A DNA stretch of 64,000 bases from Hygrophila difformis (Eukaryota; Streptophyta; Magnoliopsida; Lamiales; Acanthaceae): NCBI GenBank assembly GCA_030278955.1, contig JAOANR010000004.1, positions 53,695,459 to 53,759,458 on the forward strand, read 5' to 3'. Position 1 is the stretch's first letter. Each line of letters opens with the position of its first letter. Both the position numbers and the translations under genes were made by a program. Below are positions 51,101 to 51,559 of the stretch, one piece after another. The notes below the pieces were generated by a model. That model worked only from the letters and a program-made list of their open reading frames with translations, made no database searches and had not been told where the DNA came from.

Positions 51101-51559
51101 GAATCCCGCCGGCCGGGTTTGTTCTGCTCGTCGCCGGAGGTCCTGACTTTCACGCCCTGAGGTTTTCCCGTCTCCTGGTCGGTCTGCAGGACAAGCCCCC
51201 ACTCGGCCGCCCGCTGAGCGGCGACGCCGGTTTCCCCGGCGGCGGCCCGCCTTTGTCGGAGGCGATTTCTGCGTTTCATGATCGTTGAATATTTCGGCAA
51301 TAGTCCTGGCCGAAGCGTGCGGAGGCGGTACTGCGGGTTCCTTGAGGGCCATCCAGGAAGTAGTGGTGATGCCGTCGGCAGTGGGATTGGGGTCGGGGCT
51401 GGAGGCCCATGACTGCTGCCAGGTGGAGGGCTGGGATGATGGGCGAAATCCAGCAGCAGCAGCAGGAGAGGGAGTAAAAACTTCCAAAGAACCCCTTTGA
51501 TCCCTCGGAAGAGGCGGAATCAGAGACGACTGTTTATGCTGCAGGTGATCACTTTCCAT
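42110..51559 (-). CDS. PHOT1: Phototropin 1 blue-light receptor kinase (23 exons; frame break in exon 1)
   Basis: Plasma-membrane blue-light receptor for phototropism, chloroplast movement and stomatal opening. Exons, 5' to 3': 51559-51054, 50947-50773, 50659-50477, 48489-48398, 47451-47178, 47098-46849, 46735-46665, 46235-46129, 45931-45882, 45772-45668, 45577-45518, 45435-45346, 44869-44793, 44363-44279, 44182-44102, 43954-43851, 43681-43632, 43560-43454, 43342-43211, 43034-42983, 42873-42761, 42667-42527, 42199-42110. All introns are GT-AG, and phases agree from exon 2 on. Discounting one surplus base in exon 1 gives 997 aa, near Arabidopsis PHOT1 (996). LOV1 Cys227 and LOV2 Cys516 both lie in GRNCRFLQG, each split by an intron. 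The AGC-VIII kinase has GSGDTGS, K696, D792 (YRDLKPEN) and D810-F-D. Exon 1 is 506 nt but must be 3n+1; see findings. N-terminal motifs RDQRGSLEVF and TTSWMALKEP are in one frame, and AAQRAAEWGLVLQTD is in the next. Confidence 0.95.
44719..44744. repeat. (TG)n microsatellite in a PHOT1 intron
   Basis: Thirteen TG units lie in the intron between the two exons that carry the kinase glycine loop. Confidence 0.9.
48003..48263. mobile_element. Stowaway-like MITE in PHOT1 intron 4
   Basis: Left TTTCCTCCTTTTTCAAATG and right TTTGAGAACGGAGGAAG sit next to TA. The body is subfamily A. Confidence 0.8.
49795..50047. mobile_element. Stowaway-like MITE in PHOT1 intron 3
   Basis: Left CTCCCTCCGTTCATTTTTAG and right AAAAATGAATGGAGGAG sit next to TA. 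The body is subfamily B. Confidence 0.85.

Follow-up and report, generated by a model that had tools for sequence, protein, structure and literature searches.

PHOT1 proteins are recognized by two LOV/PAS domains followed by a Ser/Thr kinase, and GRNCRFLQG is the motif with the photoactive cysteine of the LOV domains. The closest relatives of the PHOT1 gene described here, among 120 proteins listed of 2630 found, are those of Anisacanthus quadrifidus (P0001, 85% identity), which we take to belong to Acanthaceae, and Andrographis paniculata (P0002, 86%). Both align over 98-100% of the query and share with it the N-terminal motifs, LOV1, LOV2 and the kinase, and the gene groups with them in a tree with support of 100/99. 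They differ from it at one place: across a linker in exon 1 the two relatives read continuously, as RTIAEIFNDHEAQKSPAK(S/G)...GE.G.AAAQRAAEWGLVL, whereas the gene in the window, the whole 64,000-nucleotide stretch of Hygrophila difformis DNA analysed, changes its reading frame there. Andrographis is placed in Acanthaceae in a published study (PMC13156031). Titles and abstract openings of the literature on PHOT1 frameshifts describe no lesion of this kind for Acanthaceae.

The gene has 23 exons on the minus strand (51559..42110) and is complete in the window except for the frame break, with all 22 introns of the gene model being GT-AG (Table 1). In the 904-residue product of the open reading frame from ATG 51279, Pfam recognizes PAS_9 in two stretches, and Pkinase at 577-864. 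The cysteine motif occurs twice in the conceptual protein, as expected for both LOV domains, and the motifs of a PHOT1-type N-terminus (LPRD.RGSLEVF, SWMALK and RAAEWGLVL) are all found, but across two frames. With N-terminal motifs, LOV1, LOV2 and kinase in place, the identity as PHOT1 proposed in the original prediction holds, and the window gene is an ordinary, otherwise intact PHOT1 of an acanthaceous plant. A second lesion in LOV1, suspected from tblastn at the acceptor of intron 2, was discarded, the sequence having an intact acceptor and cysteine codon there.

Table 1. Features of the window, in window coordinates.
Feature	Position	Strand	Remark
PHOT1 exon 1, holds the frame break	51054..51559	-	506 nt
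ORF from the expected start ATG 51559; typical PHOT1 N-terminus, out-of-frame tail	51077..51559	-	161 codons, stop 51076-51074
Frame-change interval, KSP (frame 0) to GE (frame +1); GC-rich variable linker	51238..51259	-	22 nt
ATG in frame with LOV1-LOV2-kinase	51277..51279	-	opens 904-codon ORF
PHOT1 exons 2-3, LOV1; photoactive Cys codon split by intron, acceptor intact	50477..50947	-	
PHOT1 exons 4-11: linker, LOV2, stretch beyond LOV2	45518..48489	-	
PHOT1 exons 12-23: kinase domain through stop codon	42110..45435	-	
Dirigent protein	3076-3798	+	Pfam
3-Ketoacyl-CoA synthase	15226-16764	+	Pfam; ORF unbroken
Malectin-like receptor kinase	26623-29160	+	Pfam; ORF unbroken
DUF604/Fringe-like protein	61760-63524	+	Pfam

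The frame break in exon 1 is a confirmed observation. Frame 0 of the exon reads MESDHLQHK...RDQRGSLEVF...TTSWMALKEP...TIAEIFNDHETQKSPPT, after which PHOT1 homology is lost, and frame +1 reads AAAGETGVAAQRAAEWGLVL... and runs uninterrupted via LOV1, LOV2 and kinase to the stop codon in exon 23, so that no single frame is continuous from N-terminus to kinase. The coding sequence amounts to 2995 nt, which is 3n+1, and therefore contains one net frame break. Frame 0 matches the two Acanthaceae relatives (RTIAEIFNDHEAQKSPAK) through KSP, whose last base is 51260, and frame +1 agrees with the same two proteins (GE.G.AAQRAAEWGLVL) from 51237 on; the break therefore lies within 51259-51238. It is placed to this interval and not to one base because the relatives vary in linker length and sequence, differing from one another in the alignment by whole codons. 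The segments of exon 1 that are richest in GC, at 87% over 30 nt and 83% over 60 nt, both begin at 51251, inside the interval. Homopolymers do not exceed five bases in exon 1 and three in the interval.

These results agree with much of the original prediction. It had recognized typical PHOT1 sequence in different frames in the two halves of exon 1, which the match to Acanthaceae PHOT1 bears out, and its frame arithmetic, with 506 nt in exon 1 where the other 22 exons demand 3n+1, is reproduced by the sum (2489 + 506 = 2995). Straight reading does stop before LOV1, near 51074, as it had said. The location that it gave to the break, a GC-rich run at about 51250, has been narrowed to the interval above, and the choice that it posed between an assembly error and a real lesion is a sound framing of the question.

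Conservation of the gene was assessed against 119 of the 120 listed relatives, P0005 (1200 aa, with an odd N-terminus) being left out of the alignment. Among the 474 near-invariant columns (at least 98% conserved) the window PHOT1 departs in one, and Anisacanthus and Andrographis in three each; over the 120 sequences that include the window gene, 37 show no departure, 27 show one and 56 show two to eight. The part upstream of the break keeps 18 of its 19 conserved columns, to be compared with 84 of the 119 relatives that keep all of theirs and 35 that depart in one to three. In trees built on 27 and 39 chosen relatives, the terminal branch of the window gene measured 0.094-0.096, and those of Anisacanthus and Andrographis 0.087-0.094 and 0.077. 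Constraint is thus not relaxed, and the gene model has no further stop, indel or splice lesion; the count of conserved columns and the normal branch length lead us to reject an old pseudogene.

The same count limits the age of any loss. Under complete loss, a neutral divergence of 0.006 would produce 6.1 expected changes at the 473 near-invariant codons downstream of the break, and the probability of at most one change is 0.057 at a divergence of 0.0045 and 0.016 at 0.006. If function has been wholly lost, the loss must be young, with a neutral divergence since the lesion below about 0.005 (about 0.5%). At a rate of about 6.5e-9 per site per year, complete loss would date to about 1 million years or less. 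The bound would fail if a shortened protein still worked; yet the part upstream of the break is conserved as well. For scale, the split between Clinacanthus and Andrographis within Acanthaceae is put at about 27 million years in PMC13156031.

A second PHOT1 is present in the same genome, on contig C11 (C11:47398887-47407286; L013, L014). It is full length (1011 aa) and intact. Downstream of the break the two genes are separated by a dN of 0.08 and a dS of 0.72-0.86; the C11 gene differs from that of the window in having no frame break and in the fusion of exons 1 and 2, which leaves 22 exons against 23. Its intron 9 starts with GC instead of GT (GC-AG in the gene model). In the tree it is placed immediately outside the group formed by the three PHOT1 sequences of Acanthaceae (support 98/90), on a longer branch (0.21), and a search with it yielded, among 120 matches shown of 1932, nothing closer than Ajuga reptans (82% over 99% of the query) or Schlegelia parasitica (86% over 89%). 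The C11 gene is an old duplicate that has been retained. Since it is intact, the plant still has a PHOT1 even if the lesion in the window is real.

The explanation that we favour, with moderate confidence, is that the assembled sequence carries a base-level error at the GC-rich spot of exon 1. The single net frame break would most likely stem from such an error in this most GC-rich part of the exon; the living plant would then most likely make a normal phototropin from the window locus, and raw reads would be expected not to support the break. Several features fit such an error. The break is the only one in about 3 kb of coding sequence, and the model shows no damage to any splice site or domain; constraint is undiminished and the terminal branch normal; and the N-terminal part, dispensable to a shortened protein, is still conserved. 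The GC-rich position favours a base-level error but equally suits natural slippage. The preference for an error is a judgement and not a result: it rests on the consideration that, in a gene under constraint, a disabling allele is a priori the rarer event. Against it stand the equally GC-rich linker exon of the C11 paralog (90% over 30 nt, 82% over 60 nt), which is unbroken, the intact 3-ketoacyl-CoA synthase and receptor-kinase reading frames of the same window, and the shortness of the homopolymers.

The accuracy of the assembly was gauged from the genome matches of three largely intronless families, GRAS (70 rows), KCS (47) and Exo70 (55). In 111 matches, 64 of them GRAS, 23 KCS and 24 Exo70, a single open frame spans the whole domain; these matches sum to about 117 kb, although some are near-identical pairs and hence not all are independent. 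Frame breaks are therefore uncommon in this assembly, which counts against an error. The rate of breaks is just roughly bounded, because one-by-one inspection of the partial rows (6 GRAS, 24 KCS and 31 Exo70) covered three GRAS loci. One of these, L017 (C11:33880632-33881742), consists of two parts, otherwise readable, that are separated by one change of frame, and it resembles the window PHOT1 in showing two overlapping frames of one gene, here a different gene. L016 was discarded as a frame break, since it looks like an intron at a place conserved in SCARECROW, and L018 as a clean one, being a degenerate copy within a tandem array. With L017 alone comparable, the broken GRAS loci do not prove a high error rate. 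Among the Exo70 loci at least one, C6:5598747/5599579, may contain another frame break. Clean breaks from all causes amount to roughly one or two per 100 kb, or a few percent per PHOT1-sized gene, a rate that does not decide between error and lesion.

Other copies of the locus were also sought. Exon 1 DNA, compared with the 915-Mb genome, matched only itself and, at 70%, the C11 paralog, with no second near-identical copy; a second allele of the PHOT1 locus was not found within the assembly. The 161-residue frame-0 product retrieved five fragments with 44-50% identity and 55-62% query coverage, too distant to be of the same species, and protein searches with the window PHOT1 gave nothing of same-species closeness among the matches listed.

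As a separate observation on the assembly, closely similar gene pairs occur at C12:7122881/7742320, C15:14520802/14799703, C6:17298243/17669640 and C2:50203918/C146:199640. Within a pair, the two genes either share a chromosome, at a distance of a few hundred kb, or involve a small additional contig, and their main aligned pieces are 96-99.5% identical; they look like leftover second haplotypes or recent segmental duplications.

The main alternative, less probable than an error in our judgement though a serious one, is a real frameshift allele of very recent origin, whether fixed or heterozygous in the plant that was sequenced, which would yield a truncated 161-codon product while the C11 PHOT1 covers the function. 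An early stop with 22 introns downstream would predict decay of the mRNA, so that the transcript would be a target of nonsense-mediated decay. The general accuracy of the assembly, the unbroken GC-rich linker of the paralog and the very existence of an intact paralog with a continuous exon 1 all speak for such an allele, as does the position of the break in an indel-prone linker where relatives differ by whole codons. The undiminished constraint weighs the other way: given the bound on complete loss, the allele would have to be recent and probably within-species. Moreover, it is the window copy that groups with the PHOT1 of Andrographis and Anisacanthus, the C11 gene being the faster one. A handover between duplicates, in which the slower-evolving PHOT1 is now being lost, or replaced by a shortened receptor starting before LOV1, with the older and faster C11 paralog taking over, is an unlikely outcome.

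Still less likely is a real lesion with rescue, in which initiation at ATG 51279, or the use of a different internal start or promoter, would keep LOV1, LOV2 and kinase under selection at the cost of about 100 N-terminal residues. The suggestion that this ATG could start a shortened receptor stands in so far as its 904-codon reading frame does contain both LOV domains and the kinase; efficient production from it is, by our reasoning, unlikely. The main ATG 51559 has a strong context (A at -3, G at +4), and two further ATGs intervene, at 51410 (G at -3, G at +4) and, in the main frame, at 51352 (T at -3, G at +4), whereas ATG 51279 has A at both -3 and +4. The main frame ends past 51279 in exon 1, upstream of 22 introns, and ribosomes from the main ATG cannot reinitiate at 51279 because the 161-codon frame terminates beyond it. 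The ATG could be reached only by leaky scanning or through a 44-codon third-frame ORF (51410-51276, minus strand), whose TGA overlaps it in an ATGA stop-start and so offers the rescue a link from 51410. The shortened receptor may be made, but it would be scarce and probably poorly translated. The conservation of the N-terminal motifs also argues against any long period without the N-terminus, and among the 60 of the 120 listed relatives whose N-termini were compared none has a start matching 51279; P0014 and P0029 begin with the Met of SWMALK, which lies upstream of the position equivalent to 51279. A tiny upstream ORF (MMQK; 51576-51562, minus strand) stops only a few bases upstream of the start codon of PHOT1.

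Restoration of the frame by a spliced mini-intron or by programmed frameshifting has the frame change itself in its favour and nothing else, and is given practically no credence: homology on either side leaves only 22 nt, too short for an intron, and a scan of exon 1 from the SWMALKEP part to the GETGV part for donor-acceptor pairs spanning 20 nt or more found no GT-AG pair of frame-restoring length (3n+1), only five GC-started candidates (22-76 nt), each of which would delete residues common to the relatives, while both Acanthaceae relatives are continuous through the linker. The small frame-restoring intron considered in the original prediction is thereby refuted, and we know of no precedent for programmed frameshifting in PHOT1.

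The frame break leaves existing knowledge of phototropins unchanged. It bears on annotation: an automated pipeline could take ATG 51279 as the start of the window phototropin or label the gene a pseudogene, and in both cases the tally of light receptors in this plant would be misleading. Nothing in the biology is out of the ordinary. The most likely cause, as favoured above, is an error of sequence at a single GC-rich spot, and the next is a young allele for which a duplicate provides the buffer. Should the lesion prove real, Hygrophila difformis would carry a natural near-null allele of phot1, backed up by a second PHOT1, that could serve to test the role of the duplicate.
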